From NCBI RefSeq assembly GCF_050003625.1, contig NC_134398.1:104631253-104695252 (forward strand): a stretch of 64,000 bases of DNA, written 5' to 3'. Below the pieces are notes generated by a model. The model saw nothing but the letters and a program-made list of their open reading frames with translations, was not told where the DNA came from and did no database searches. The translations under genes and the position numbers were made by a program. Source of the stretch: Haematobia irritans (lineage: Eukaryota > Arthropoda > Insecta > Diptera > Muscidae). Each line of letters begins with the position of its first letter. Positions within the stretch are counted from its first letter, which is position 1. Of the stretch, positions 21,568 through 58,210 are shown piece after piece.

Positions 21568-22461
21568 ATGTCAATCAGTGGTATAGAAAGATGCCAGACC
21601 AAGGTTCAACACAGAGTGAACATTACGCTTCAGTCGAGATCCAACAATTTCTCAACGCGCTTGGAGGCATTTGTACTACCACAAATTCAATTTGTTCACA
21701 TTGATAAATGGCTAATTCCCAGCAACGTAACGTTGGCAGACCCTTCATTCAACCGTCCGGGCAAAATCGACATCCTATTAGGCGCAGAATATTATCATCA
21801 GTTACCCGCTATTGGACAAATTAAACTAGGATAGAAACTTCCAATCTTGCAAAACACAATATTTGGCTGGATAGCATCAGGGAAGGGATCTGACTGAAGA
21901 AGACAGCATGAACCAGAAAATCGAACGATTCTGGAAACTGGAAGAAGTCGGTAATACACAGAAACAATTATCGACGTATGACGCACAGTGCGAAGGTCAC
22001 TTTAATCAGCATACTGGACGTGACAAAGACGGAAGATTCATCGTAAGCCTCCCATTTTGTACCGAACCAATTTCGTTAGGAGAGTCACACAGTATCGCTT
22101 TCACACGTTTCCTGTCATTGGAATGACCATTAGCCAAAGACTAACATATACCTTAAAACAACAATATACAAAGTTAATGGATGAATATGACTAAAGTCAA
22201 CATAGGCAATGTGACAGGAGCAAAATATTTTATTCCCCACCACTGCGTTCTACGACCCGAAATCCGTACCACTAAACTTCGAGTTGCATTCGATGTTTCA
22301 ACAAAAACATCGTCAGGGAAGTCACTGAACCATGTTTTGCATACTGACCCACCACTACAGAATGATCTGTTTGCTATTTTGCTACGCTTCAGCTTACCGC
22401 GCTTTGTGTTTACCACAAACATAGAAAAAATGTTTCGTCAAATACTGATCCATCCTAAAGA
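21568..22461 (+). pseudogene. pol: BEL-2 protease linker and RT start (first tandem copy)
   Basis: Contains NVTLADPSFNRPGKIDILLG (protease end), then FWKLEEVG, RDKDGRFIVSLPF, and the RT start YFIPHHCVLRPE, TKLRVAFDVSTKTSSGKSLN and EKMFRQILIHPKD. Stops and frameshifts lie near 21832, 22124 and 22190. Cut at 22461 by the start of the inserted element that is complete in the second copy. Confidence 0.88.
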
Positions 22462-23564
22462 CATTAGCGTAGCTAGACAATTTTCCTAGCTAAAAATTTA
22501 TAGATTGAACTTATAGGTTCAATTAATGTTTTATTTCATAAAAATGAATAAAAAATTAGACATCAAAATAAATCAAAAAATTAGACAATAAAAAAGGTTC
22601 AACACAGAGTGAACATTACGCTTCAGTCGAGATCCAACAATTTCTCAACGCGCTTGGAGGCATTCGTACTACCACAAATTCAATTTGTTCACATTGATAA
22701 ATGGCTAATTCCCAGCAACGTAACGTTGGCAGACCCTTCATTCAACCGTCCGGGCAAAATCGACATCCTATTAGGCGCAGAATATTATCATCAGTTACCC
22801 GCTATTGGACAAATTAAACTAGGATAGAAACTTCCAATCTTGCAAAACACAATATTTGGCTGGATAGCATCAGGGAAGGGATCTGACTGAAGAAGACAGC
22901 ATGAACCAGAAAATCGAACGATTCTGGAAACTGGAAGAAGTCGGTAATACACAGAAACAATTATCGACGTATGACGCACAGTGCGAAGGTCACTTTAATC
23001 AGCATACTGGACGTGACAAAGACGGAAGATTCATCGTAAGCCTCCCATTTTGTACCGAACCAATTTCGTTAGGAGAGTCACACAGTATCGCTTTCACACG
23101 TTTCCTGTCATTGGAATGACCATTAGCCAAAGACTAACATATACCTTAAAACAACAATATACAAAGTTAATGGATGAATATGACTAAAGTCAACATAGGC
23201 AATGTGACAGGAGCAAAATATTTTATTCCCCACCACTGCGTTCTACGACCCGAAATCCGTACCACTAAACTTCGAGTTGCATTCGATGTTTCAACAAAAA
23301 CATCGTCAGGGAAGTCACTGAACCATGTTTTGCATACTGACCCACCACTACAGAATGATCTGTTTGCTATTTTGCTACGCTTCAGCTTACCGCGCTTTGT
23401 GTTTACCACAAACATAGAAAAAATGTTTCGTCAAATACTGATCCATCCTAAAGACATTAGCGTAGCTAGACAATTTTCCTAGCTAAAAATTTATAGATTG
23501 AACTTATAGGTTCAATTAATGTTTTATTTCATAAAAATGAATAAAAAATTAGACATCAAAATAA
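21601..23564 (+). repeat. Tandem duplication, 993-bp period
   Basis: 21601-22571 is repeated at 22594-23564, with a 22-nt linker between. The copies look nearly identical; one difference noted is GCATTTGTA versus GCATTCGTA. The repeat spans BEL-2 protease/RT and the first 110 nt or so of the inserted element at 23455, so the duplication happened after that insertion. Confidence 0.95.
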
Positions 23565-24474
23565 CTCGACAATTAATTTATAATAAAGCAACAAAAAGTA
23601 GTTCCACATTTTTCCCAGCAAAAAAATGAGAGTTGTTCTAAAGGCACAACTTTAAAAGCACTTCCAAAAATTCCCTCACAAAGAAGTTAATTATTTTAAG
23701 TTTTAAGATTTAAGAAGTTTTTTTACTTCATTTTTTTCATATTTTAATGTGTAATTTTTTGTTTTCTTTTTTTTTAAATAGTTTAAAAAAGAGTAAGAAT
23801 AAATAAAATGGTACAAGTTATTCAAATTTTGCCACAAAAATACTAAATCCATTATAGAAAAATCGATCATTTTTGCAAATATTCGATGGAAAACGTTTCA
23901 AACAAGCGTTAGAATGCATTAAAAATCATACAAAATATAAAAATTATTTATTTGGGAAAATATCACAAAATTTTTTAATTCACTTTCAAAACAAATTCAT
24001 TGCAACGGCTGTTGAATCGGTGGACATTCGTCCTATGACAAGTTCATATTTCATTCATCGCTTCTCCGCCAATTTTGCATCACTTCCGGACTCAAAAAGA
24101 ACATTTTCACTTCTTTTTTGCAACGCTTTTTTGCAGCATTGGTAAGATATTAATTTATGAAAGAATAGTTTTATTATCAATTACTTTTTTTTAATTAAAT
24201 TGACTAAACAAAATAATACAGGAGCTTTAGTTATTAAGCTAAATCATAAGTTCAACCACATCTTTATTTCATAAATATCAGACTGCAAAAATTGCCATCG
24301 GCAACTGCTAACACAACCCAAGTAAATCGATTGTGCATGAAAGTCTTTAGCGGAACTTTGTGCGGTAGTATATACTTTTTTAATTTTTATAAAGATGGAA
24401 AATTGTAAATAAGTTTTCAAATTCTGGGGAGGGCTAAAATATTTCTGAGGGGTCTAAGCCTTCCTACGCTCATG
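23455..24474. mobile_element. Non-autonomous DNA element with 8-bp TSD (1,020 bp)
   Basis: Ends CATTAGCGTAG... and, inverted, CATGAGCGTAGG. It is flanked by the direct repeat CCTAAAGA at 23447-23454 and 24475-24482. Removing it joins BEL-2 RT exactly (...HPKD + RPYQIILL). The 8-bp duplication is typical of hAT or P superfamily elements. No transposase is recognised inside. A diverged relative lies at 54036-54890. Confidence 0.88.
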
Positions 24475-29277: not shown

Positions 29278-29424
29278 TCGAGAAGGTTCAGCGGTTAAAA
29301 CTAGAAGTGCCCATATGTAATAGGTACTTTTAGTTAATGTGGTATCACAATGGACTGAATAGTCTAAGTGAGCCTGAATCTTAATCGGGCTGCCACTTTA
29401 ACCTAACCTAACCTAACTCGGGAA

Positions 29425-29614: not shown

Positions 29615-30644
29615 TGTTCTATTATTTAAATGATAGAATTTGAGATCATTACATGGTCGGGAAAATCGTGTACCTGACCATTCAATTTTTTTTAGATTTT
29701 TGCAGAGAAAAAAGGATTTTTATAGGTTACATATAGAACATCTAGAATGTGTGTGAAGATAAATACGTATTTAAAACCCTAGACACAAACCAATTGTAAT
29801 AGATTAGGGTAAAACATTTTGGGATTTTTTCGAAAAACTGATTTTTTGGAAAAACTACTGGGAATTTAAAATTAAAATTTCGCAGGAACAATGCCAGGGG
29901 AACACCCTACATAACGGTTTATTTATTTTGGAAATACATTAACCACCGCAAGAGATATGTGGTGGGACATTTGGCAATGGGAGGGGAATCATATCTCTGG
30001 AACGGGATATCCTGCCAGGACTACTTATGCGGCAGTGTATAGTCCTATGAAATACCTATCGAACAAGGTATAGCATATATCAAGATTTGATTTTTAAGAC
30101 ACCAAATACGCTCTTTTAATTTCTGTATTTATTATCCTAAATTTCTGGAGGGGATCAGTGGCCATATCTCAGGAACGAAGCTACCCTCTGACCTAAAATT
30201 TATGACAAATTAATGTGCTTGTAACACCCTTCAATCAGAGGGTAAACATTTGTTGAAGCGATATTTCAGAACTCCAAAATTGTTCCTCCAATATTGGTTA
30301 TTTTACCTATGAATTTTCGGAGGGGAGGAATGCGTCCAGGAGGAGTGGGGTACATCCTGCCGACATAGCTCCCACACAAATCCATACTCCTAAAGACGCC
30401 TTTTCGAACAAAAGAAACAGCGAATCAAGAATTGATTTTGGGATTGCTCCAGCTCCTCATCAATATGACCCTTTTTCAGACCAAAAAATACAAAACTGAA
30501 TAGAAGCAAAGCAGAAAAATTTCGCACCAGATGCTTGGCCAGGAGCAGTGCTAATATCGATGGAACGGGATCTCCTTCCGACATAGCATAAAAACCATTA
30601 TAAAGCTCCAAGAAACACCTATACGGATTGATGTCACTTTATTC

Positions 30645-32020
30645 CAGAATTGATTTTGGTATACCCAGATACGCCTGTTCAAATGTGGCCCATTTCATAG
30701 CAGATTCTGGCCGGGAGCAGTGGCCATATCTTTGGAACGAATTATCCTGCCGACAAGGGATGACCACTGTTGTATAGTCCTAGGAACCTACTTTCCGGAA
30801 TGGTGTCACTTTATTCCAGAATTGATTTCGGTATACCCAGATACGCCTGTTCAAAAGTGGGTAATTTCATAGCAGATTCTGGCCGGGAGCAGTGGCCATA
30901 TCTTTCGAATGAAATATCCTGCCGACACGAGATGACCACTGTTGTACAGTGCTAGGAAGCTACTTTCCGGAATGGTGTCACTTTATTGCAGAATTGATTT
31001 CGGTATACCCCAATACGCCTTTTCAAAAGTGGTCAATTTCATAGCAGAATCTGGCCGGGAGCAGTGGCCATATCTTTCGAATGAAATATCCTGCCGACAC
31101 GAGATGACCACTGTTGTACAGTGCTAGGAAGCTACTTTCCGGAATGGTGTCACTTTATTGCAGAATTGATTTCGGTATACCCAGATACGCCTGTTCAAAT
31201 GTGGCCCATTTCATAGCAGATTCTGGCCGGGAGCAGTGGCCATATCTTTGGAACGAATTATCGTGCCGACATCAAATAACCACTGTTGTATAGTCCTAGG
31301 AAGCTACTTTCCGGCATGGTGTCACTTTATCCCAGAATTGATTTCGGTATACCCAGATACGCCTGTTCAAATGTGGCCCATTTCATAGCAGATTCTGGCC
31401 GGGAGCAGTGGCCATATCTTTGGAACGAATTATCGTGCCGACATCAAATAACCACTGTTGTATAGTACTAGGAAGCTGCTTTCCGGAATGGTGTCAATTT
31501 GTTCCAGAATTGATTTTGGTATACCCAGATACGCCTGTTCAAATGTGGCCCATTTCATAGCAGATTCTGGCCGGGAGCAGTGGCCATATCTTGGGAACGA
31601 ATTATCCTGCCGACAACGGATGACCACTGTTGTATAGTCCTAGGAAGCTACTTTCCGGCATGGTGTCACTTTATCCCAGAATTGATTTCGGTATACCCAG
31701 ATACGCCTGTTCAAATGTGGCCCATTTCATAGCAGATTCTGGCCGGGAGCAGTGGCCATATCTTGGGAACGAATTATTCTGCCGACAAGGGATGACCACT
31801 GTTGTATAGTCCTAGGAGCCTACTTTCCGGAATGGTGTCACTTTATTCCAGAATTGATTTCGGTATACCCAAATACGCCTGTTCAAAAGTGGTCAATTTC
31901 ATAGCAGAATCTGGCCGGGAGCAGTGGCCATATCTTTGGAACGAATTATCCTGCCGACATGAAATAACCACTGTTGTATAGTACTAGGAAGCTGCTTTCC
32001 GGAATGGTGTCAGTTTGTTC
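30645..32020 (+). repeat. 172-bp tandem repeats, left arm (8 units)
   Basis: Each unit holds CAGAATTGATTT(T/C)GGTAT, then GGCCGGGAGCAGTGGCCAT, then a CCGACA...ACCACTGTTGTA block, at 172-nt spacing. The core units are highly alike. More diverged units lie outside (around 30150 and 30390-30600), as in arrays homogenised in the centre by unequal exchange. Confidence 0.93.
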
Positions 32021-32415
32021 AAGAATTGATTTTGGTATACCCAAATACGCCTGTTCAAATTTGGAATCAATTGTAATAGATTAGGGTAAGAAAAAAAATT
32101 TTTTTTTGTGTTTGCAAAAAAGTGGCTTTAAAGAAAAACTATTTTGAATTTAAAGTAAAATTTTGCAAAAACAGTGCCGCCTATATAGCAATTTTGTTCT
32201 TTCTTAAATATATTGACTACAACTAAAGTAGTGGTGTAAGACATTTGGCAACGGACGTATAAAAAACTCCGAAACTCTTTTCCGGATTAATGTAACATTA
32301 TTTCCAAATCAAAGTTGGTGTATGCAGATGCTTTACACTTTTTCCTAAATTTTATTATTAGTGTTTAAAATAAAAATAAATTCGAATAAAATTTTATCAA
32401 AAGTAAGCCAACCTT

Positions 32416-32478
32416 GATTTGAACCTGCATACTTAAATAAACCTTGATTCCAACTCACTCATCAACGAGTTAGGCCAC
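32416..32478 (-). other. tRNA-like box A/box B module, left arm (outward-facing)
   Basis: On the minus strand GTGGCCTAACTCG (box A-like) is followed by GGTTCAAATC (box B consensus) about 50 nt later. It is the arm partner of 34803-34865. It has no full cloverleaf that I can support, so it is a Pol III promoter-like tRNA relic, not a tRNA gene. Confidence 0.45.
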
Positions 32479-32576
32479 TGCCTTGACGATAATCTGCGCA
32501 ACGAAACTTTCCTATGACGTAATTCCAGGTTTTGTCTTTAATTAAACACAGGTAGACCTCAACATACATAGTTTCT

Positions 32577-33400
32577 GTAAGATGTCTACATTTCAATTAC
32601 GCCATTTTGGTTAATGCTGAGGCTTACCTGTTTCAGTTGCTTTAACAGAGTCAAGAGGGTTACCAACTCCGAAAATTAATGACAATTAATTAATGAAAAA
32701 TGAAAAACCTCTGTAGAAAGTTGGTATAATCTCCACACCCAGGAAATGTCATTAGAAGTAAATTGCACAAGTAATGAATTTTTATGAAACCCTTTGCTAT
32801 ATTGGGTTTCATAAAAACTACCACCAAACAAGTCGTGGTTTTGCACCTACTGTAAGTTTTTATTGTTATGATTCTTTAATGCTGAGAAAACTTTCGAAGA
32901 TTGATATTTACCATAAGTAGTGAATTTAGTTGTTTTCCACAAATATCAGCACTGGAACCCAAATTTTTTGTTGCTGTGCATTCAAGAGATTTCTTGGTGC
33001 TAAGCAAAGATTGACTAAATTTATTTAATATTTTTTTTTATCTAATATATTGTTAAAATTCAAAATTTTAAGTAAAATTTATAAATCTTAGACACTGTAT
33101 AGAGCTAAAGTGCATAAGTGCCGTTTAGGATTTCGTTAAGTTTGTAATTAAGTTTTTAAGGTATCTAGCGTACGATGAGTAGCGTAAACTTAAGGTAATA
33201 CTATAATTAAAATGAAGATGTAAACTTAGTTTATTTAGACTTAGTTTGTTGTTAACTATTTGCGTAATACAATTTTTTGCTATACAGTGTAATTCATATA
33301 ATCTTTATACGTGATGCAAAAGATTGGTATCATTCACAATTTGTGTGAATGAGATGCTCTTTGGGTTAAATATAAATATAATTTTAACAAATTTTAAATT
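32577..33400. other. Left half of unpaired core segment of the palindrome
   Basis: AT-rich sequence with no inverted partner by eye; its opposite, 34275-34707, is shorter and unrelated. No open frame or transposase motif is seen in either. These segments separate the young outer arms from the old inner repeat. Confidence 0.55.
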
Positions 33401-33635
33401 CAAGAATATTATAAAATCGCTCAATGGCAACACTATGCCGCACGTGCAATGAGGGAGCAAAGAGAAAATGTATGCTTACCCTTTTAAAGCGCAAGAGAAC
33501 CAATGTCGTAACACCGTTACTATTTCAATTTTTAAGGAAATGAGTGAAACCCCAATACACCCATATAAGAGATCGTTATCATTTCTTGTAGTCGTTTAGT
33601 TGAGCTATTCGCTAAAGTATTCAGTGGAGTTAGGA

Positions 33636-33697
33636 TGGTCTAGTAGGTTAAGCGTTTGGCGTATTTTTCTTTATTCAACAGATGCGAGTTCGAGTCC
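33636..33697 (+). other. tRNA-like module, core of palindrome (left, inward-facing)
   Basis: TGGTCTAGTAGG (box A-like) at 33636, then AGTTCGAGTCC (box B-like) at 33687, followed by T-rich sequence at 33720-33770 that could end Pol III transcription. Diverged from its inverted partner at 33949-34016. Confidence 0.45.
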
Positions 33698-33948
33698 ACG
33701 TTTGATTGACTGTGACACGTTTTTATTTATTTTGATTACTGTATTGTTTTTTTTTTTACTAAAAAATTCATTTCATCGACTCAGAATTTCCCCACAACCA
33801 AGAATGTATAAATACACTCTATGGTGTCTGAAACCAATATTTTAATGCATTACAAACGGATTGACGAATTTAGTATACCCCCATCCTATGATGGAGGGTT
33901 TAAAAAATATGTATATACACATATATATGTATAAATATAGTCAAAAGT

Positions 33949-34016
33949 GGGCTCGAACACCTAACCCTTGAACAAAATTAGATTGTACCGAACGCTCAAC
34001 CTATTCGGCTATGCCA
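33949..34016 (-). other. tRNA-like module, core of palindrome (right, inward-facing)
   Basis: On the minus strand TGGCATAGCCGAATAGGTTG (box A-like; resembles a Ser/Leu-type D-arm) is followed by GTTCGAGCCC (box B-like). Inverted, diverged partner of 33636-33697. No complete acceptor stem is visible. Confidence 0.45.
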
Positions 34017-34802
34017 ATCATTTGAACTATGTGGCGAATAACTCAACTAAACGATATACCACTACAATTGCAAGTGTTAGTTCAAGCTCAAGTATGTGTG
34101 TTTGCGTTTCCACCCCAAAATCCATTTCTCAAAAATTGAAATAGTAACGGGATTAAGTTATTTGGTTCTCTTTGGTTTTTAAAGAGTTAAATGGGTATTT
34201 TCTATTTGCTCTCACGTTAAATGTTGTAGTATTGCCAATGTTCTTTTTAATATACACCATAATATTTATTAGATTTATCTAGTTAAATTACAATAGAAAT
34301 GCGGACATGATTTCAAGAAAAAAACTTATTATTAAATGAATTGCAATGAATTTGGTGCACGTAGGTCACTCGAAAATAAAGTGGTTGCAATTATATTTTT
34401 TGGTTTATAAAGTAAGAATGCCTACACTAAAAACAGTGAACGCACCATGGCATTAAAGTCAACTTAACTTTATTTTAGTTCATGAAAATTATTATGTTTT
34501 AGTTTAAATTTCCCCAATATGAGAAAATTATTTAAATTTAATAATTTTTGTGTGCATGTAGATGAACTACAAAAGAAGAACAAGTTACACAAATGAAAGA
34601 TTTCGTATTTTTCAGAAAAAAGTTTAAAATTTCCTAAAATTTGTAAATTTTGCTAAAAATGTACAATGAATTTCTGGAACATGTCGAAAATTATTTACTT
34701 ATTTTTGTCATATGTATGTTGAGGTCTACCCGTGTTTACTTAAAGACAAAACCTGGAATTACGTCATAGGAAAGTTTCGCTGCGCAGATTATCGTCGAGG
34801 GG

Positions 34803-34865
34803 GTGGCCTAACTCGTTGATGAGTGAGTTGAATTCAAGGTTTATTTAAGTATCCAGGTTCAAATC
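34803..34865 (+). other. tRNA-like box A/box B module, right arm (outward-facing)
   Basis: GTGGCCTAACTCG at 34803 and GGTTCAAATC at 34856. The box B matches the GGTTCRANTC consensus fully. Inverted partner of the module at 32416-32478. Confidence 0.45.
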
Positions 34866-35221
34866 ACGGTTCGCTTACTTTTAATAAAATTTTATTTGAA
34901 TTTATTTTTATTTTAAACACTAATAATAAAATTTAGAAAATGGTGTAAAGCATCTGCATACACCAACTTTGACTTTGAAATAATGTTACATTAATCCGGA
35001 AAAGAGTTTCGGAGTTTTTTTATACGTCCGTTGCCAAATGTCTTACACCACTACTTTAGTTGTAGTCAATATATTTAAGAAAGAACAAAATTGCTATATA
35101 GGCGGCACTGTTTTTGCAAAATTTTACTTTAAATTCAAAATAGTTTTTCTTTAAAGCCACTTTTTTGCAAACACAAAAAAATTTTTTTTTCTTACCCTAA
35201 TCTATTACAATTGATTCCAAA

Positions 35222-36290
35222 TTTGACCAGGCGTATTTGGGTATACCAAAATCAATTCTGGAACAAATTGACACCATTTCGGAAAGCAGCTTCCTAGTAC
35301 TATACAACAGTGGTTATTTGATGTCGGCAGGATAATTCGTTCCAAAGATATGGCCACTGCTCCCGGCCAGAATCTGCTATGAAATGGGCCACATTTGAAC
35401 AGGCGTATCTGGGTATACCGAAATCAATTCTGGGATAAAGTGACACCATGCCGGAAAGTAGCTTCCTAGGACTATACAACAGTGGTTATTTGATGTCGGC
35501 ACGATAATTCGTTCCAAAGATATGGCCACTGCTCCCGGCCAGAATCTGCTATGAAATGGGCCACATTTGAACAGGCGTATCTGGGTATACCGAAATCAAT
35601 TCTGCAATAAAGTGACACCATTCCGGAAAGTAGCTTCCTAGCACTGTACAACAGTGGTCATCTCGTGTCGGCAGGATATTTCATTCGAAAGATATGGCCA
35701 CTGCTCCCGGCCAGATTCTGCTATGAAATTGACCACTTTTGAAAAGGCGTATTTGGGTATACCGAAATCAATTCTGCAATAAAGTGACACCATTCCGGAA
35801 AGTAGCTTCCTAGCACTGTACAACAGTGGTCATCTCGTGTCGGCAGGATAATTCGTTCCAAAGATATGGCCACTGCTCCCGGCCAGAATCTGCTATGAAA
35901 TGGGCCACATTTGAACAGGCGTATCTGGGTATACCAAAATCAATTCTGGAATAAAGTTACACCATTCCGGAAAGTAGCTTCCTAGCACTGTACAAAATTG
36001 GTCATCTCGTGTCGGCAGGATAATTCGTTCCAAAGATATGGCCACTGCTCCCGGCCAGAATCTGCTATGAAATTGGCCACTTTTGAACAGGCGTATCTGG
36101 GTATACCGAAATCAATTCTGGAATAAAGTGACACCATTCCGGAAAGTAGGTTCCTAGGACTATACAACAGTGGTCATCCCTTGTCGGCAGGATAATTCGT
36201 TCCAAAGATATGGCCACTGCTCCCGGCCAGAATCTGCTATGAAATGGGCCACATTTGAACAGGCGTATCTGGGTATACCAAAATCAATTC
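35222..36290 (-). repeat. 172-bp tandem repeats, right arm (6 units)
   Basis: Inverse copies of the left-arm unit, counted from six occurrences of ATGGCCACTGCTCCCGGCC (35351, 35523, 35696, 35868, 36040, 36212), followed by a diverged unit near 36380. The array is two units shorter than its left-arm partner. Confidence 0.93.
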
Positions 36291-37739
36291 TGGAATAAAG
36301 TGACATCAATCCGTATAGGTGTTTCTTGGAGCTTTATAATGGTTTTTATGCCATGTCGGAAGGAGATCCCGTTCCATCGATATTAGCACTGCTCCTGGCC
36401 AAGCATCTGGTGCGAAATTTTTCTGCTTTGCTTCTATTCAGTTTTGTATTTTTTGGTCTGAAAAAGGGTCATATTGATGAGGAGCTGGAGCAATCCCAAA
36501 ATCAATTCTTGATTCGCTGTTTCTTTTGTTCGAAAAGGCGTCTTTAGGAGTATGGATTTGTGTGGGAGCTATGTCGGCAGGATGTACCCCACTCCTCCTG
36601 GACGCATTCCTCCCCTCCGAAAATTCATAGGTAAAATAACCAATATTGGAGGAACAATTTTGGAGTTCTGAAATATCGCTTCAACAAATGTTTACCCTCT
36701 GATTGAAGGGTGTTACAAGCACATTAATTTGTCATAAATTTTAGGTCAGAGGGTAGCTTCGTTCCTGAGATATGGCCACTGATCCCCTCCAGAAATTTAG
36801 GATAATAAATACAGAAATTAAAAGAGCGTATTTGGTGTCTTAAAAATCAAATCTTGATATATGCTATACCTTGTTCGATAGGTATTTCATAGGACTATAC
36901 ACTGCCGCATAAGTAGTCCTGGCAGGATATCCCGTTCCAGAGATATGATTCCCCTCCCATTGCCAAATGTCCCACCACATATCTCTTGCGGTGGTTAATG
37001 TATTTCCAAAATAAATAAACCGTTATGTAGGGTGTTCCCCTGGCATTGTTCCTGCGAAATTTTAATTTTAAATTCCCAGTAGTTTTTCCAAAAAATCAGT
37101 TTTTCGAAAAAATCCCAAAATGTTTTTACCCTAATCTATTACAATTGGTTTGTGTCTAGGGTTTTAAATACGTATTTATCTTCACACACATCATCTAGAA
37201 CCATTACATGACCATAAAGACCATGTACATTGTTTTCGTGACCATTTAATTTTTTAACTTGTTTGCAGCGAAAATAATTTTATAAAAACATTGAGCAGGT
37301 ACACACGATTTTCATCTTGAGCGTCAGTGATGTGTTGATTGTTTCTTGGAATGGACGGAGAATACGGAATTATTGTGTTTTGTGTTAATTTATTTATTCG
37401 GAAGTGGCACGTGGTTTTATGTGAACACAAAAAAGGAAAGTGTAATCGAAAAAAATGTATCTGATTTTTGTTCTGCATTTTGATATATGGTATCATTTAT
37501 TTCTATTTGCTGTTACATGATGTCTGCGTTGGTACATTTGATGGGCACGAAGTAAATATGGAATGATTACTTATTGTTGAAATTGAACCAAAATGGAGTG
37601 TGTAAAAATATGTGAAGTTTGCTTGCACGACATTATAAATACAAATAAACAATGAATTAATTTATAAATAAATAAAAACAAATAAATAAAGTTAATTTTG
37701 TGTTTTCTTTTCTCAAGTGGCGTCCTTTTTTCGACCAAG

Positions 37740-42679: not shown

Positions 42680-44020
42680 GGAATGTATTTACGTTTCACA
42701 TCTTCTGCGATTCATCAGAAAAGGCATACTGCGCGGCAGTATACATTAGAACAATCTTACCAAATAAGATTATACTTGTAAACCGCCTTTGTGCGAAATC
42801 TCGAGTAACGCCCCTTAAACAACAAACGCTTCCAATGCTAGAATTGTGTGCTGCACAGCTGGGAGCTAACTTAGCGGTTAAAGTTATGCACGATTTAGAC
42901 ATGATGACAGTACCAATATTTTATTGGACTGATTCTGCAATAGTGTTGAATTGGACAACTCAAGATCATCCTCATTTCACACATTTGTTGCTGAACGTAT
43001 AGCTTCAATTCAAGATGGAGACACGTTAGTTCCAAGGATAACCTATCAGACATCATATCTAGGGGATTAGACCCACATGAGCTATCACAAACAACTCAAT
43101 GGATGCACGGTCAATTCTTTCTTCATGGAATGTATTTACGTTTCACATCTTCTGCGATTCATCAGAAAAGGCATACTGCGCGGCAGTATACATTAGAACA
43201 ATCTTACCAAATAAGATTATACTTGTAAACCGCCTTTGTGCGAAATCTCGAGTAACGCCCCTTAAACAACAAACGCTTCCAATGCTAGAATTGTGTGCTG
43301 CACAGCTGGGAGCTAACTTAGCGGTTAAAGTTATGCACGATTTAGACATGATGACAGTACCAATATTTTATTGGACTGATTCTGCAATAGTGTTGAATTG
43401 GACAACTCAAGATCATCCTCATTTCACACATTTGTTGCTGAACGTATAGCTTCAATTCAAGATGGAGACACGTTAGTTCCAAGGATAACCTATCAGACAT
43501 CATATCTAGGGGATTAGACCCACATGAGCTATCACAAACAACTCAATGGATGCACGGTCAATTCTTTCTTCATGGAATGTATTTACGTTTCACATCTTCT
43601 GCGATTCATCAGAAAAGGCATACTGCGCGGCAGTATACATTAGAACAATCTTACCAAATAAGATTATACTTGTAAACCGCCTTTGTGCGAAATCTCGAGT
43701 AACGCCCCTTAAACAACAAACGCTTCCAATGCTAGAATTGTGTGCTGCACAGCTGGGAGCTAACTTAGCGGTTAAAGTTATGCACGATTTAGACATGATG
43801 ACAGTACCAATATTTTATTGGACTGATTCTGCAATAGTGTTGAATTGGACAACTCAAGATCATCCTCATTTCACACATTTGTTGCTGAACGTATAGCTTC
43901 AATTCAAGATGGAGACACGTTAGTTCCAAGGATAACCTATCAGACATCATATCTAGGGGATTAGACCCACATGAGCTATCACAAACAACTCAATGGATGC
44001 ACGGTCAATTCTTTCTTCAT
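42680..44020 (+). repeat. Tandem triplication, 447-bp period, in BEL-2 RNase H
   Basis: Units start GGAATGTATTTACG at 42680, 43127 and 43574 and look identical. Each unit begins with about 14 nt of the Gypsy-B LTR end, so the amplification followed the Gypsy-B insertion. The junction TTCAT/GGAATG resembles the unbroken exit TTCAT/GGAGAC, suggesting microhomology at GGA. Confidence 0.95.
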
Positions 44021-44358
44021 GGAGACGAGAAACATCGGCCTCCTGCGTTTCTTCCATCTCCTGATTCGGCCATCACTGAAAGAAAGCAGAACCTACACAA
44101 CCTAATGTTGGCCGTTGATGCAGAAAACTTCTTGTACATAATAAACCACAGGAATTCCCTTAAGGCACTCCAAAGAATTGTTGCTTATATTGTAAGATTT
44201 ATCAAAAATTTCAAAACCGGTAAAGAAGAACGACAAAACAGACCAACCCTTACTCCTTTTGCGCTTCACAATTCCCTTATCGTCATAGTCATCACACAGC
44301 ATTCTAACTTCAAAGAAGACATTCAACAATTGGAGAAGTATAGAAAACTTAAAGGTTC
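42693..44358 (+). pseudogene. pol: BEL-2 RNase H (in three copies) and following linker
   Basis: Each unit encodes FHIFCDSSEKAYCAAVYI, LPMLELCAAQLGANLA and FYWTDSAIVLNW, the catalytic blocks of BEL RNase H, and ends in DIISRGLDPHEL-type sequence after a frameshift. After the third unit 43997-44358 continues with MHGQFFLHGDE, YIINHRNSLKALQRIVAYI and QQLEKYRKLKGSSP, which leads into integrase at 49417. Confidence 0.9.
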
Positions 44359-45887: not shown

Positions 45888-47291
45888 GATAGAGTTGCCC
45901 GTTTACCTGCACGTCCCGTTGAGCAATCAAAAAACTGAATAAAACCCTGTCTGATACGAATTTTACTATAGTTTATCAGAATGTTAGGGGACTTAACACA
46001 AAATTATGCAACCTATATACGGATAGCTTTGGCTTTGATTATGATTTGATTATATTTACTGAAACCTGGCTTCAAAGTAATATCTTAAATACTGAAATCT
46101 TATGCGACAAGTACCAAATTTATAGATGTGACCGCACAAATGGTTTGAAAAAATCTGGTGGCGGCGTCCTAATTGCTGTTTCTTCGAAATTTGCTTCATC
46201 AAAAATTGATATTCCAAATGAACTTCAAATTGAATATTTAGGAGTGAAAATAAGGTGCGGCCATAATTCATTGTTTGTGACTTGCTCCTATATTCCTCCT
46301 GGTTCTTGTAATGATGTTTATAATGCTCATTTGACTGCTATCCAATCGGTCCTATCTACTGCCTATCTATTACATCCTATCTATTACATGGAAATATTGT
46401 GAGGAAATGAATTACTCCGTACCAATGCTAAGAAATGGATATCAATCTGAATTTGTTGAAAACTTGTTAAAAGATGGTCTTTTTCAAATTAGCAACATAC
46501 AAAATTCGAAAAATAAATTACTTGATTTATTTTTTACAAATGAACTAAAAGATGTGTTTTTATCTCGCGTCAACGCCGTTGTAAATCCTGAAGATGTTCA
46601 TCATCCCACTGTCTGTATGAATATAAATATGTCTTTTTCGAGACCTATGCGAAAAAAACTCGTATTGAAAACTGATAAAATATTCTCTTTTAATAGAACT
46701 GATTACGAAAAACTGAACTCATTACTATTAAATGTGGATTGGAATAAAATCTTACCAGCGAGAAATCTTGATGAATCAATAAATACATTTTATGAAACTT
46801 TGAATTCATTCATTGCCCAATCTGTTCCATTAATTCGAATAACTTCTCACACTGGTCCACCTTGGAATGACAGTAAATTACGTAACTTAAAGAATAGAAA
46901 GAATAAACTTTATAAAAAGTATAAAAAATCTGGATCTGTGACTGACTATGCAAACTACACAATTGCTCGTTCAGAATACAACCTGTGGAATAAACAATCC
47001 TATAACAATTATTTATCGAAAATTAAAAATGAACTGAAGCTTAATCCAAAGTCATTTTACAGATTTGTTAATTCTAAACGTCAATCAAATGTGTATCCAA
47101 GAACCCTTCACTATGGTGAAGGGAATGATAATGAATCTATATGTAATTTGTTTTCAAAGTTCTTTGCAACAACTTACTGCCATAAGGATTTCAAGCAATC
47201 TGATGCGTACCCATAGAAGATACAGGAATATTCGACATTCACTACTCCATTTATTTCTCCTGAGATTGTGATGAGTTATATGGAAAAGATA

Positions 47292-48188
47292 AAGGGTGAT
47301 TCTTTTGAGGTTAGGATTTTCATGCATTAGTATTTGACAGATCACGTGGGATTTCAGACATGGTGTCAAAGAGAAAGATGCTCAGTATGCTTTGACATTT
47401 CATCATGAATAGACTTACTAACGAGCCACAACGTCGAATTTTCAGTGAATGGGCCCTAGAAAAGTTGGCAGAAAATCCGCTTTTTTATCGACAAATTTTG
47501 TTCAGCGATGAGGCTCATTTCTGGTTGAATGGCTACGTAAATAAGCAAAATTGCCGCATTTGGAGTGAAGAGCAACCAGAAGCCGTTCAAGAACTGCCCA
47601 TGCATCCCGAAAAATGCACTGTTTGGTGTGGTTTGTACGCTGGTTGGACCGTATTTTTTCAAAGATGCTGTTGGACGCAACGTTACGGTGAATGGCGATC
47701 GCTATCGTTCGATGCTAACAAACTTTTTGTTGCCAAAAATGGAAGAACTGAACTTGGTTGACATGTGGTTTCAACAAGATGGCGCTACATGCCACACAGC
47801 TCGCGATTCTATGGCCATTTTGAGGGAAAACTTCGGAGAACAATTCATCTCAAGAAATGGACCGGTAAGTTGGCCACCAAGATCATGCGATTTGACGCCT
47901 TTAGACTATTTTTTGTGGGGCTACGTCAAGTCTAAAGTCTACAGAAATAAGCCAGCAACTATTCCAGCTTTGGAAGACAACATTTCCGAAGAAATTCGGG
48001 CTATTCCGGCCGAAATGCTCGAAAAAGTTGCCCAAAATTGGACTTTCCGAATGGACCACCTAAGACGCAGCCGCGGTCAACATTTAAATGAAATTATCTT
48101 CAAAAAGTAAATGTCATGGACCAATCTAACGTTTCAAATAAAGAACCGATGAGATTTTGCAAATTTTATGCGTTTTTTTTAAAAAAAG
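47292..48188 (+). mobile_element. DD41D (rosa-type) element copy 1, right end lost
   Basis: Left end AAGGGTGATTCTTTTGAGG next to TA (47290-47291), inside LINE-B. It matches copy 2 (57284-58210) base by base over most of its length, but the last 22 nt or so, including the right terminal repeat, are absent. The flanking LINE-B RT has lost sequence at the same point, so one deletion removed both. Confidence 0.92.
47405..48110 (+). pseudogene. DD41D transposase, internally deleted (copy 1)
   Basis: A short N-terminus (MNRLTNE) jumps to RRIFSEWALEKLAENP, so the DNA-binding domain and much of the N-terminal half are deleted. First catalytic Asp in LFSDEAHFWLNGYVNKQNC; frameshift in the GLYAG region near 47645; second Asp in MWFQQDGATCHTARD and third in CDLTPLDYFLWGYVKSKVY. 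I count 41 residues between the last two Asp, hence DD41D. Same frameshift as copy 2. Confidence 0.9.
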
Positions 48189-49416
48189 AATTGACTACAA
48201 TGGTTAACGAAGGCTTTAGAGATCGTTTACAGACTGATGTCATTTATACTGATTTTAGTAAGGTGTTTGACAAAGTAAACCATTCACTTTTACTGTACAA
48301 ACTGCATCGCATGGGCTTCAGTGAATTAATGGTATCCTGGTTTGAAAGTTATCTAAAGAATCGTACACAATTTGTAGTATTTGATAACATTATTTCAAAA
48401 TCAATACATGTGCCTTCTGGTGTTCCACAAGGCAGTCATCTTGGCCCTCTATTGTTCTGCTTATTTATAAATGACCTTCCATCAGCCATTAAATATGGTT
48501 ACACTCTCATGTATGCTGACGATGTTAAAATTATAAAGGTTATTCGGAATAGTGATGACCACTCCTTACTCCAATCTGATCTGAATAGCATGTACAGATG
48601 GTGCTCATCAAATATGATGGAACTGAACATAAGGAAATGCAAGCATATCTCTTTTTATAGATTAAATTATATCGACACGAATTATAACTTGAATGGCACA
48701 ACGCTTGAAACTGTTGAATCCTTTAAAGATCTTGGAATACTTTTGGATCGCAGGCTAAATTTTAGATCTCACATTTCTATGACTGTAAATAAGGCCTATG
48801 GATCATTTAGATTTGTCAAGCGCTGGAGTAAGGAATTTTCTGACCCATTTGTTACAAGAAACTGATATACTTCACTTGTGCGTCCTATCCTGGAATATGG
48901 ATCTGTAATTTGGGACCCACAGTACCAAATTCATTGCAATCGTATTGAATCTGTTCAGAAACAATTTTTACTGTTTTGTTTACGTCGGAATAACTGGACA
49001 CCTCAAACCTTGCCGTCTTACAAAGAAAGACTATCGCTCATCAAATTACCTACACTGAAAAGTAGACGTACCATGCTGAATATCTGTTTTATGGTTGATT
49101 TAATTAACGGAAGATTTAAATCTGACTTCCTTATTAACAGCATTCATGTACCCTTTAGACCTACCCGCAACTTTGAACTGCTCCACATTGAATACTTTCG
49201 AACGAGCTTTGAAAACAACGATCCACTTCGCCGTCTTTGTAATGAATTCAATAAATTTTATTATTATCTTGATTTTTCAGAAGAGAAATACAATGTAAAG
49301 AAAAAGATAACATTATTATTAAATACTTGATATATTAACAAACGATATGTATATAATGTAATATATTACTGTTAGTCTGTAAGGGTTTAATCCATAGATG
49401 AAAATAATAAAAAAAA

Positions 49417-50905: not shown

Positions 50906-52592
50906 TCAAAGTTCGGGTGATGCTTCGTTGTCGCACAGTGTGTTGCAAGCGCTGTTTTTTTGGAGTTTGTTACTATTGCGAAGTTTTATGTCTGATTTGT
51001 GTCCCGACAGTCTTGTTTTTAATTTATTTTTTGTAGTTCCAATATACATTTTGCCACATGGTTCTTTGTTGTCTCCATTGCATGTTATTTGATAAATAAC
51101 ATTAGATGTTTCCATAATTGATGTCTTGTCTTTAGTTTTTGTGAAAATGTTTTTTAGTGTATTGTAATTTTTATAGGCAATATTAACTTTATTTCTGTCT
51201 ACTATGTTCGAGTTTGTAGGATTAGGATCTGTAAATTTTGGGTTCTTTCTCTATCTTTTCTTGGTCCAAGCAGGGTTTATATGATGAAATTAATTCTTTG
51301 ATTAGTTTTGGTGGAAAATTATTTTCCTGAAATATATTTTGCAGCTTTTGTCTGTTGTTTTTATGAAATTTGTTATCACTGATTGTCAGTACTCTGTTTA
51401 CGGAATTTTTTGCCGTATTTATTAAAATAGATCTTGGATGATTGGAATAGAAGTTCATTATTCTTCCTGATACTGTGTCTTTCTGATACCAGTCTGTGAT
51501 AAGTTTTCCATTTTCTTTTATTAGTAGTATGTCCAAGTAAGGTAGTTTATTATTCGCTTCTATTTCTATTGTAAAACGTATGCTTTTACGAAATTCATTA
51601 AGGCATTTTAAAGTATTATCTATTTCGTCCTCTTTTAGTATCGCAAATAGGTCGTCAACGTACTTAGTCATGATTTTGGGGTTTTCTTTTAACTTGTCCA
51701 TAGATAGTATTTAACAATTTTCCCATTAAAATGTCTGCTATGACCGGAGATGCAGGTGATCCCATGGGTAAACCCTTTTTCTGCCTATATATTTTTCCGT
51801 CGTATTGAAAATATCGATTGTCCACTATACAGAAACGTAGAATTTTCATAAAAAAAATTTCAAATATGACAAATTTGAGTGTACTGTTATTTCATTCCAT
51901 CTTTCTTCTATTATTTGAAGTGCTGCGTCAACCGTTACACTTGGGAAAGGCAATACTACGTCAAACGAAATTAATTTATCATCCTGTTGGATCGTCAAGT
52001 GTTTTATTCTATCTCTAAATTGCACTGAATCCCGAACATTATATTTAGACTTCAAGCATTCAGAATATCTGCCATATATTTACACATCTCCGAGGACGAG
52101 GATTTAACCGACGAACATATTGGTCTTAATGGGTATCCTTCTTTATGGATTTTTGGTAGTCCGTATAGCCTTGGTGCAAACACATTATCTGCCTTAAGGT
52201 TCTTCTTTTCCGTTTCCGATATAATATTATTCTTGAAAAGTTCTTCAACCAACTCATTGTTTCTTTTTTGTAGGGCTTGTGTGGGGTCTTTATTTGTCCT
52301 TTGATATGTCATCATATCAACTACAATTTTTAACATCCTCTCTTTATATTCTTCCTTCTCCATGGCCTCTGTAACGTTTCCTTTATCTGCGTTTAGTATG
52401 TAAATATTCTTGTTGGCACTTAAAAATTTTTTGGTTCGTTCCACTGTATTTATAATATCTTTTTTCTCTTCCATTATAGGACATTTTGTGATTTTCTACT
52501 GATGTTGCGAACTTTGTCCTAGCCTTTTCTTGCTCTTCCTTGTCTTTGTTCATCTGGATACTTGTTGATATACATTTGTTAAAATCTTTCAT
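50906..52592 (-). pseudogene. Penelope-type RT plus GIY-YIG endonuclease, frameshifted
   Basis: Pieces in order: RT start with NIYILNADKGNVTEAMEKEE (52474-52052), YGLPKIHKEGYPLRPIC, KLISFDVVLPFPSV (52055-51846), QKKGLPMGSPASPVIADI (51849-51664), catalytic TKYVDDLFAIL and LPYLDILL (51701-51222), and the endonuclease NVIYQITC...CGKMYIGTTKNKLKTRLSGH (51115-50906). At least four frameshifts or stops separate them. RT and endonuclease of this kind carry out target-primed insertion. Confidence 0.92.
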
Positions 52593-57150: not shown

Positions 57151-57171
57151 TATTTGAAATATGGCATGTTA

Positions 57172-57281
57172 GGTTAGGTTACGTTAAAGTGGCAGCCCGA
57201 TTAAGATTCAGGCTCACTTAGACTATTCAGTCCATTGTGATACCACATTAACTAAAAGTAACTATTACATATGGGCACTTC
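57172..57281 (-). repeat. LINE-A 3' end, 5'-truncated, inverted
   Basis: Minus-strand match to the last 110 nt or so of LINE-A (29300-29413), including two GGTTA/TAACC tail units at 57172-57180. Such short 5'-truncated copies are normal products of LINE insertion. Confidence 0.9.
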
Positions 57282-57283
57282 TA

Positions 57284-58210
57284 AAGGGTGATTCTTTTGA
57301 GGTTAGGATTTTCATGCATTAGTATTTGACAGATCACGTGGGATTTCAGACATGGTGTCAAAGAGAAAGATGCTCAGTATGCTTTGACATTTCATCATGA
57401 ATAGACTTACTAACGAGCAACGCTTGCAAATCATTGAATTTTATTACCTAGAAAAGTTGGCAGAAAATCCGCTTTTTTATCGACAAATTTTGTTCAGCGA
57501 TGAGGCTCATTTCTGGTTGAATGGCTACGTAAATAAGCAAAATTGCCGCATTTGGAGTGAAGAGCAACCAGAAGCCGTTCAAGAACTGCCCATGCATCCC
57601 GAAAAATGCACTGTTTGGTGTGGTTTGTACGCTGGTTGGACCGTATTTTTTCAAAGATGCTGTTGGACGCAACGTTACGGTGAATGGCGATCGCTATCGT
57701 TCGATGCTAACAAACTTTTTGTTGCCAAAAATGGAAGAACTGAACTTGGTTGACATGTGGTTTCAACAAGATGGCGCTACATGCCACACAGCTCGCGATT
57801 CTATGGCCATTTTGAGGGAAAACTTCGGAGAACAATTCATCTCAAGAAATGGACCGGTAAGTTGGCCACCAAGATCATGCGATTTGACGCCTTTAGACTA
57901 TTTTTTGTGGGGCTACGTCAAGTCTAAAGTCTACAGAAATAAGCCAGCAACTATTCCAGCTTTGGAAGACAACATTTCCGAAGAAATTCGGGCTATTCCG
58001 GCCGAAATGCTCGAAAAAGTTGCCCAAAATTGGACTTTCCGAATGGACCACCTAAGACGCAGCCGCGGTCAACATTTAAATGAAATTATCTTCAAAAAGT
58101 AAATGTCATGGACCAATCTAACGTTTCAAATAAAGAACCGATGAGATTTTGCAAATTTTATGCGTTTTTTTAAAAAAAAAAAGTTATCAAGCTCTTAACA
58201 AATCACCCTT
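57284..58210 (+). mobile_element. DD41D (rosa-type) element copy 2, complete ends (927 bp)
   Basis: Left end AAGGGTGATTCTTTTGAGG and right end ...GAGCTTGATAAC inverted (AACAAATCACCCTT), flanked by TA at 57282-57283 and 58211-58212. Non-autonomous through an internal deletion. Left flank is LINE-A sequence, right flank is BEL-3 LTR-like sequence. Confidence 0.92.
57397..58102 (+). pseudogene. DD41D transposase, internally deleted (copy 2)
   Basis: The N-terminus MNRLTNEQRLQIIEFYYLEK shows a different deletion joint from copy 1, then the same catalytic region (SDEAHFWLNG, QQDGATCHTARD, PLDYFLWGYV) and the same frameshift near 57640. The start retains the first residues of the native transposase. 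Confidence 0.92.

Follow-up and report, generated by a model that had tools for sequence, protein, structure and literature searches.

A 7,445-bp element, lying at positions 29747-37191 of the 64,000-nucleotide stretch of Haematobia irritans DNA that was analysed (the window), is likely a non-autonomous foldback transposon, with inverted arms composed largely of 172-bp repeats. The initial annotation had already proposed a non-autonomous mobile element of foldback type, and the one copy at hand, with its exact ends, target site duplication, repeat-bearing arms and no stop-free stretch above 82 amino acids (aa), gives that proposal good support; the reading is drawn from this single copy, which by itself cannot demonstrate the status of a family. 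Elements of this kind and size are already known, and Tetris and a 9-kb copy of Galileo are close structural precedents in the portions of the published descriptions at hand. What is new here is that the flanking domain of the arms aligns with decayed 172-bp units, that the terminal module (A) recurs as a second copy (A'), and that the core contains an older palindrome. A literature search returned no report pairing 'foldback' with 'Haematobia', and within the scope of that one search the element is apparently unreported in the horn fly.

The element is bounded by a direct repeat, within which lie the two arms:

29739-29746, no strand: left copy of the target site duplication, CATCTAGA (or 9 bp with the following A)
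29747-32570, plus strand: left arm, about 2,824 bp
34711-37191, minus strand: right arm, about 2,481 bp
37192-37199, no strand: right target site duplication, CATCTAGA

The exact inverted termini between direct 8-bp copies that had been described at the outset are borne out. The outermost 60 bp on both sides match perfectly when one end is inverted. The 20-mer ATGTGTGTGAAGATAAATAC has a single occurrence in the window, at 29747, and its inverse likewise a single one, at 37172; on the plus strand of the window CATCTAGA is found at 29739 and 37192 only. By simple arithmetic, the chance of a given 8-mer matching at a fixed place is 4^-8, about 1.5e-5. Since an A follows both copies, the duplication could alternatively be 9 bp long, CATCTAGAA, if the terminal A/T is excluded from the inverted repeat; an 8-bp duplication with a perfect inverted repeat is the simpler reading. 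No empty (uninterrupted) insertion site was found within the window. A search with the 20-bp end returned a single match, of 23 bp, in a viral contig; with no similarity better than E 0.5 over the rest of the element, it was taken as chance. Template switching can generate long palindromes, and an inverted duplication arising from replication or repair, instead of transposition, could in this way account for the arms; a direct 8-bp repeat placed exactly at both outer ends is unexpected under such an origin, which we regard as very unlikely.

The element appears devoid of an enzyme of its own, as had been supposed. Across all six frames, stop-free stretches reach 82 aa at most, and a Pfam scan of 10 of the 47 stretches of at least 50 aa gave no family at the curated cutoff (best sub-cutoff match, E 0.015). 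Searches with the translated 172-bp unit and the flanking-domain frame found no relatives, nor did DNA-pattern searches with the 172-bp unit in viral and prokaryote collections or with a 22-bp block. A retroelement protein located 23 kb from the element shares 93-96% identity with four horn-fly proteins.

As in foldback elements, the target site duplication lies at the outer ends, the long inverted arms hold internal tandem repeats, and flanking, array and inner domains make up each arm on either side of a non-coding middle. The features of the arms are the following, those on the right being mirrors of the left where indicated:

29788-29980, plus strand: left terminal module A, starting 41 bp inside the end, aligned to A'
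29792-29812, plus strand: 21-bp block AATTGTAATAGATTAGGGTAA, exact copy 1
29990-30483, plus strand: left flanking domain, made of decayed 172-bp units (its length fits about three)
30517-32064, plus strand: nine 172-bp units (L1-L9; L1 strongly diverged)
32065-32254, plus strand: left A', the terminal module repeated in direct orientation, 66.5% identical to A
32069-32089, plus strand: 21-bp block, exact copy 2
32271-32329, plus strand: remnant of about one third of a unit on the inner side of A' (score 42; maximum 30.5 in 200 simulations)
35028-35216, minus strand: right A', mirror of the left, hand-placed from the arm alignment and the 21-bp block
35192-35212, minus strand: 21-bp block, exact copy 3
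35217-36420, minus strand: seven 172-bp units (R1-R7)
36454-36947, minus strand: right flanking domain, decayed 172-bp units, mirror of the left, hand-placed from the arm alignment
36957-37150, minus strand: right terminal module A, mirror of the left, hand-placed from the arm alignment
37126-37146, minus strand: 21-bp block, exact copy 4

Global alignment of the two arms over 2,831 columns revealed 69 mismatches, three 1-bp gaps and two 172-bp gaps, and these last confirm the earlier observation that the arms differ in length by two 172-bp units. The description of the arms as nearly identical holds for their outer 1,114 bp, which are separated by one substitution and one indel (99.9% identity), and does not extend to the whole, as identity is uneven and falls to 96.2% in the inner domains, 3.8% of which differ (1 mismatch in 1,114 columns of the outer tract versus 19 in 505 of the inner domain; Fisher P 3e-9). 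Assembly or polishing could partly create perfect long-tract identity in an assembled palindrome. An outright assembly artefact, in which the assembly duplicated one arm, or joined it wrongly, as its own reverse complement, would also yield the 99.9% identity of the outer tract; against it, the flanks beyond the duplication differ, the arms are two whole units apart in length, the units of the arrays are reshuffled and the inner domains have diverged, whereas a simple fold-back artefact should leave equal, identical arms without a direct 8-bp repeat. We therefore hold such an artefact to be highly improbable.

Unit spacing is exactly 172 bp throughout both arrays. When units are paired by position between the arms, L1 and R1 show one difference, and L2/R2, L4/R5 and L5/R6 none. 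L2 to L9 differ from one another at 4-22 of 173 alignment columns and from L1 at 43-48. A second perfect tract, L4-L5/R5-R6, spans 344 bp and is flanked by diverged units; at the inner-domain rate its probability is about 2e-6, a value calculated for a pair picked after the fact. L3 is equidistant from L4 in its own arm and R4 in the other (7 differences each), and no clear partner could be assigned to R3, L7 or L8. Because some units are as close to their own-arm neighbours and others are partnerless, the array alone is no proof of copying between the arms. In the outer tract, the decayed units and L1 differ by 25-40% from the inner units of their own arm. The near-perfect identity of this tract to the other arm, despite such divergence within the arm, fits long-tract copying better than unit-by-unit homogenisation.

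The flanking domain (29990-30483) aligns to the 172-bp unit with a score of 126.5, the maximum being 42 in 200 simulated sequences. Taken alone, the outer third (29990-30170) scores 99 (simulated maximum 28) and the inner third (30345-30518) 45.5 (28.5); the middle third (30170-30345), on its own, bears no likeness to the unit, its score being equalled in 137 of 200 simulations. In both arms, module A is repeated directly as A', which borders the array on its inner side. The 21-bp block common to A and A' is present in four exact copies, with none elsewhere in the window (allowing up to 3 mismatches, the expected number is 0); it is a candidate recognition site. A degenerate version of the block in every 172-bp unit was sought and rejected, as 22.8% of 1,000 simulations scored equally on the same strand and 87.5% on the opposite strand. 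Since the unit shows no sign of the block, the idea that each unit acts as an additional transposase site, as in Galileo, finds no support.

Between the arms, the core is more than a simple spacer:

33369-34289, no strand: older core palindrome, centre near 33829, halves about 60% identical

The doubling of the terminal module, in direct orientation in each half, could be taken to mean that two inverted copies of an older, shorter element inserted near each other and trapped about 2.1 kb of other DNA, the pair not being one mobile unit. The spacers on either side of the core palindrome (32571-33368 and 34290-34710) resemble each other only weakly (at best 79% identity over 34 columns, E 1e-4, in sequence that looks AT-rich), and this weakness also suits two insertions. 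On the other hand, CATCTAGA at the outermost ends is accounted for by a single insertion, and the core is itself partly palindromic with a centre of its own; we find the double insertion unlikely and retain a single foldback transposon.

Two other origins of the core were considered and rejected. Additional arm-derived units are not supported, as similarity between core and arms does not exceed that of simulated sequences (12 and 11 of 40 score equally). A SINE-like, tRNA-derived core was suggested by one A-box/B-box pair at 33636-33696, a combination absent from 40 simulated 64-kb sequences; the pair has a mirror copy, at about 33940-34045, whose alignment to it scores 52 (simulated maximum 27.5, n = 200). 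Another stretch of like appearance, in the inner arm, gives poor alignments to both core copies (5 and 12 of 200 simulations equal). One Rfam search returned nothing up to E 1, and another gave five matches, none to a tRNA family and all below the curated score. ARAGORN found no tRNA in the core at default and 90% settings; looser settings gave hits in the core, but also 19 and 15 hits across the element. Of four tRNA-like stretches that were folded, none looked like a cloverleaf by eye and one (33945-34036, minus strand) had a better fold than the majority of its shuffles, 3 of 200 doing equally well.

The initial annotation had set this element apart from its precedents by its size and missing enzyme, a distinction that comparison with Tetris and Galileo does not support. 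In the consulted text of its description, Tetris (D. virilis) has duplications of 8-9 bp in three complete copies and 9-10 bp in four rearranged ones, arms made of an outer flanking domain of up to 866 bp, a tandem array of variable unit number and an inner domain, a non-coding middle, and no transposase that was found (PMC4079207). Duplication length, arm plan, non-coding middle and lack of a recognised transposase are thus common to both. In Tetris, too, the flanking domain and the array unit are similar over 37 bp, and unit number varies between alleles (PMC4079207). Its unit is about 220 bp and its arms reach 1,735 bp, versus 172 bp and about 2,824 and 2,481 bp here; the inner direct copy of the terminal module and the palindromic core, compared by description only, find no mention for Tetris in the passages at hand (PMC4079207). 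A Galileo copy of D. willistoni measures 9,021 bp, with arms of 4,246 and 4,680 bp, tandem repeats of about 140 bp and no transposase segment in the available account (PMC4168063). In D. willistoni and D. mojavensis, the longest Galileo arms belong to copies without a transposase frame, and unit number may differ between the arms of one copy, much as observed here (PMC4168063, PMC3573991). Galileo differs in that transposase segments are known for it, and in its duplications, usually 7 bp (8 in three D. willistoni copies) with a preference for GTANTAC, versus CATCTAGA (PMC4168063, PMC3573991).

The length of the duplication and the plan of the arms point to a Mutator-type transposase as the mover of the element, a proposition whose chances we consider evenly balanced. 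A duplication within 8-10 bp together with terminal repeats longer than 100 bp, as found here, is typical of Mutator elements, and dipteran members have duplications of 8-9 bp, most families also having long ends that bear repeats, according to the sections consulted (PMC5225508). The Mutator-like elements of Aedes aegypti, including Muta1, and Tm1 of root-knot nematodes (duplications 8-10 bp) resemble the element in duplication length, composite repeat-bearing ends, variable repeat number and many enzyme-less derivatives (PMC5225508, PMC3169594, in part). They differ in their end-repeat units, 9-15 bp in Aedes and about 14 bp in Tm1 versus 172 bp, and the ends of Muta1, at 145 bp, are far shorter than the arms described here (PMC5225508, PMC3169594). 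Plant Mutator-like elements with tandem terminal repeats, mostly enzyme-less, likewise have a terminal module doubled directly at both ends; as far as the excerpted account goes, their copies were retained when less than 600 bp apart, whereas about 2.1 kb, mostly 172-bp array, separates them here and the outermost 41 bp are absent from the inner copy (PMC3310237).

A transposase of P, hAT or Merlin type could instead move the same foldback element, an option that we consider less likely. An 8-bp duplication is equally compatible with Merlin (8-9 bp), P and hAT. The hAT duplication pattern nTnnnnAn is a preference rather than a rule, and CATCTAGA departs from it, its second and seventh positions being A and G. 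Merlin ends carry a conserved 5'-GG, at odds with the ATGTGTG found here (PMC8101967). Galileo, a long-armed fly element of P type, has 7- or 8-bp duplications (PMC4168063, in part); the 8-bp length fits, CATCTAGA does not follow GTANTAC, and only 2 of 7 positions pair in a hand count of the P-type palindromic motif centred on the duplication, a weak objection from one site.

For the preferred foldback transposon, we propose that a transposase encoded elsewhere would move the element by cut-and-paste, recognising the outer ends and perhaps also the 21-bp block. The arms may have grown by tandem amplification of a unit adjoining, or inside, the duplicated terminal module, with later unequal exchange altering unit number in each arm separately. 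Occasional copying of long tracts from one arm onto the other would hold the outer 1.1 kb at 99.9%.

A more elaborate scenario, which we judge improbable, is that of a self-templating nested palindrome, in which three stacked arm generations (outer 99.9%, inner 96%, core 60%) would reflect fresh arms built repeatedly outside older ones, arm-to-arm copying would restore the outermost tract, and the transcript would silence the element's own autonomous partner, as a fly counterpart of maize Mu killer. Under this scenario, transcription would yield a naturally occurring double-stranded RNA that carries the transposon's own ends and is perfectly paired over more than 700 bp. In the portion of its description at hand, Mu killer is likewise a natural locus with inverted halves both bearing transposon ends, which was proposed to give rise to a hairpin RNA of about 4 kb; it differs in having transposase coding sequence, by which the present element is not matched, and silences MuDR (PMC3440606).

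Foldback-like elements have been linked to inversions and new satellite DNA, in the part of the source consulted (PMC4079207). The horn-fly element, near base-for-base equal between its arms over the outer 1.1 kb, is a record of arm upkeep. To our knowledge, the means by which giant foldback arms stay alike are poorly known. The presence of A' on the inner side of the array provides a testable starting point for how foldback arms grow.

As far as structure can be tested on a single copy, the element at 29747-37191 (7,445 bp) appears to work like a foldback element, the tests possible on one copy all agreeing with this reading. The initial annotation had described a 7.4-kb palindromic element, and its inverted ends are indeed exact over at least 60 bp; the 20-mer named there and its inverse each occur once in the window, one per element end. 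The 8-bp target duplication claimed at the same time was likewise recovered, with CATCTAGA present on the + strand at 29739 and 37192 only in the whole window. Each copy of CATCTAGA is followed by an A, so that the duplication could instead span 9 bp, provided that the ends are slightly imperfect. The reported lack of a transposase is upheld by a longest stop-free stretch of 82 aa in the element, and a Pfam scan of 10 of the 47 element stretches of at least 50 aa returned no match above cutoff and three below it, the best with an E-value of 0.015.

Arm-versus-arm alignment covers 2,831 columns, with 69 mismatches, two 172-bp gaps and three 1-bp gaps. Both arms are built from a terminal module (A), tandem 172-bp units numbered from the outside inwards (L1-L9 in the left arm, R1-R7 in the right) and a second direct copy of the module (A') at the inner edge of the array. 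The right arm mirrors the left plan, with seven units.

Features of the left arm, from the outer end inwards
Outermost 41 bp: found at the outer end only, outside module A
29788-29980: module A
29990-30483: flanking domain, decayed 172-bp units
30517-32064: nine 172-bp units, spaced at exactly 172 bp
32065-32254: A', repeating A in direct orientation
Inward of A': 59-bp unit remnant
Inward of the unit remnant, ending at 32570: about 240 bp of other sequence

The flanking domain (29990-30483) matches the 172-bp unit with a score of 126.5, when 200 simulated sequences reach at most 42. Taken alone, the first and last of its three pieces pass as resembling the unit, and the middle piece (30170-30345) shows no resemblance, its score being equalled in 137 of 200 simulations. 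Unit L1 differs from the other eight left units at 43-48 positions, and those eight differ among themselves at 4-22. A' is 66.5% identical to A, and their alignment scores 135, where none of 200 simulations exceeds 46. The block AATTGTAATAGATTAGGGTAA occurs in exactly four copies in the window, namely in A and A' of both sides, and no further copy was found elsewhere in the window with up to three mismatches allowed (0 expected by chance); we infer that it is a candidate recognition site.

Similarity between the arms is uneven along their length. The outer 1,114 bp carry one mismatch and one indel, with a perfect run of up to 774 bp in that comparison, and L4-L5 match R5-R6 over 344 bp with zero differences. 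Candidate partner units between and around the matching tracts differ at 5-14 positions, and the inner domain differs between arms at 19 of 505 positions (outer tract versus inner domain, Fisher P = 3e-9). The outer tract, the L4-L5/R5-R6 match and their diverged surroundings therefore show that the arms agree in tracts. The short L4-L5/R5-R6 tract is favoured by the analysis itself, because unit pairs were picked by least difference; the outer tract is colinear and independent of such picking. Among the units compared, R3, L7 and L8 lack a clear counterpart in the opposite arm, and some units are equally near an own-arm neighbour, as with L3, which has seven differences from L4 and seven from R4. 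Tract-wise agreement is consistent with a long tract being occasionally copied from one arm onto its partner, alongside unequal exchange, through which the two arms would have altered their unit numbers independently. Polishing of the assembly could mimic some of this pattern.

The 2.1-kb core between the arms contains in its middle (33369-34289) an older palindrome, which aligns with itself at 60% identity and 182 bits over 982 columns, a length that includes each half twice; 60 simulated cores reach at most 55 bits. The spacers flanking it resemble each other weakly, and no similarity between core and arms rises above simulation. A single Pol III A-box/B-box-like pair lies at 33636-33696 (+) and has a diverged inverted partner near 33940-34045 (-), inside the palindrome. 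Neither Rfam nor ARAGORN, the latter run with its default and 90% settings, detected a tRNA in the core. The two core halves (33369-33829 and 33830-34289), otherwise about 60% identical, share a 20-bp block, CCGTTACTATTTCAATTTTT, without any change; it is possibly a functional site.

Among known systems, Tetris shares the plan of the element, with a flanking domain, variable-number tandem units, an inner domain and no enzyme (PMC4079207). Complete Tetris copies have 8-9 bp duplications, its authors suggest placement in the Mutator superfamily (PMC4079207), and its autonomous partner is still called unknown in a later paper (PMC6278893). Galileo includes a case longer than the element (9,021 bp, arms of more than 4 kb, tandem repeats of about 140 bp; PMC4168063) and, like the element, unit numbers unequal between arms (PMC3573991). 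Duplications of 8-9 bp with mostly repeat-bearing ends are reported for Aedes Mutator-like elements (PMC5225508), and of 8-10 bp with composite ends for Tm1 (PMC3169594). Plant Mutator-like elements also have directly doubled terminal repeats, but nearer each other than here (PMC3310237). A Merlin assignment was considered and is unlikely by end sequence, because Merlin ends are described as starting with GG (PMC8101967). A search of one paper library for 'foldback' together with 'Haematobia' found no paper, and three papers there combine 'foldback' with 'Musca domestica' and 'transposon', PMC5225508 being one of them. The DNA collections scanned for relatives were viral and prokaryote, and they yielded no match to the 172-bp unit.

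Among ten scanned window frames outside the element, Pfam detected retroelement domains in five (six counting DUF1759) and a Transposase_1 piece in one. The retroelement protein frame at 60143-61525, 23 kb from the element, has six Haematobia irritans proteins among its best 120 of 948 matches. Four of these six show 93-96% identity in alignments covering 47-91% of the query, and the other two are 85% and 47% identical; Musca proteins among the matches listed are 42-57% identical. The window therefore probably derives from the horn fly (H. irritans) or a close relative. Frames at 50906-52495 (-) are presumably Penelope-like, judged by eye; the one stretch scanned within them (51222-51710) gave no Pfam family. 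Mariner-like copies were also recognized by eye in the window. Two of them (47290-48190, lying between LINE-like frames, and 57282-58182) are 97.8% identical, and the one frame scanned in the first (47541-48110) gave no Pfam family. The horn fly is reported to carry very many mariners (PMC5940159). A 116-bp sequence recurs in inverted orientation at 29302-29417 and 57168-57283 (98.3%); the former copy lies some 320 bp to the left of the foldback element, and the latter abuts the second of the two mariner-like copies. At 42680-44023, within coding sequence that looks retroelement-like by eye, a 447-bp (149-codon) segment stands three times head-to-tail, all copies identical, which is explained either by in-frame triplication in the very recent past or by an effect of assembly. 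In a tandem duplication of about 1 kb (21601-23599), the two copies are 98.5% identical and the left one overlaps an open frame.

In maize, the Mu killer locus, which has inverted halves and two copies of a MuDR end, silences its autonomous partner, and read-through from flanking genes was not upheld as its source (PMC3440606). If it is transcribed, the present element would yield a duplex whose uninterrupted perfect stretch exceeds 700 bp and bears transposon ends; by analogy, the element might be a fly counterpart of Mu killer.
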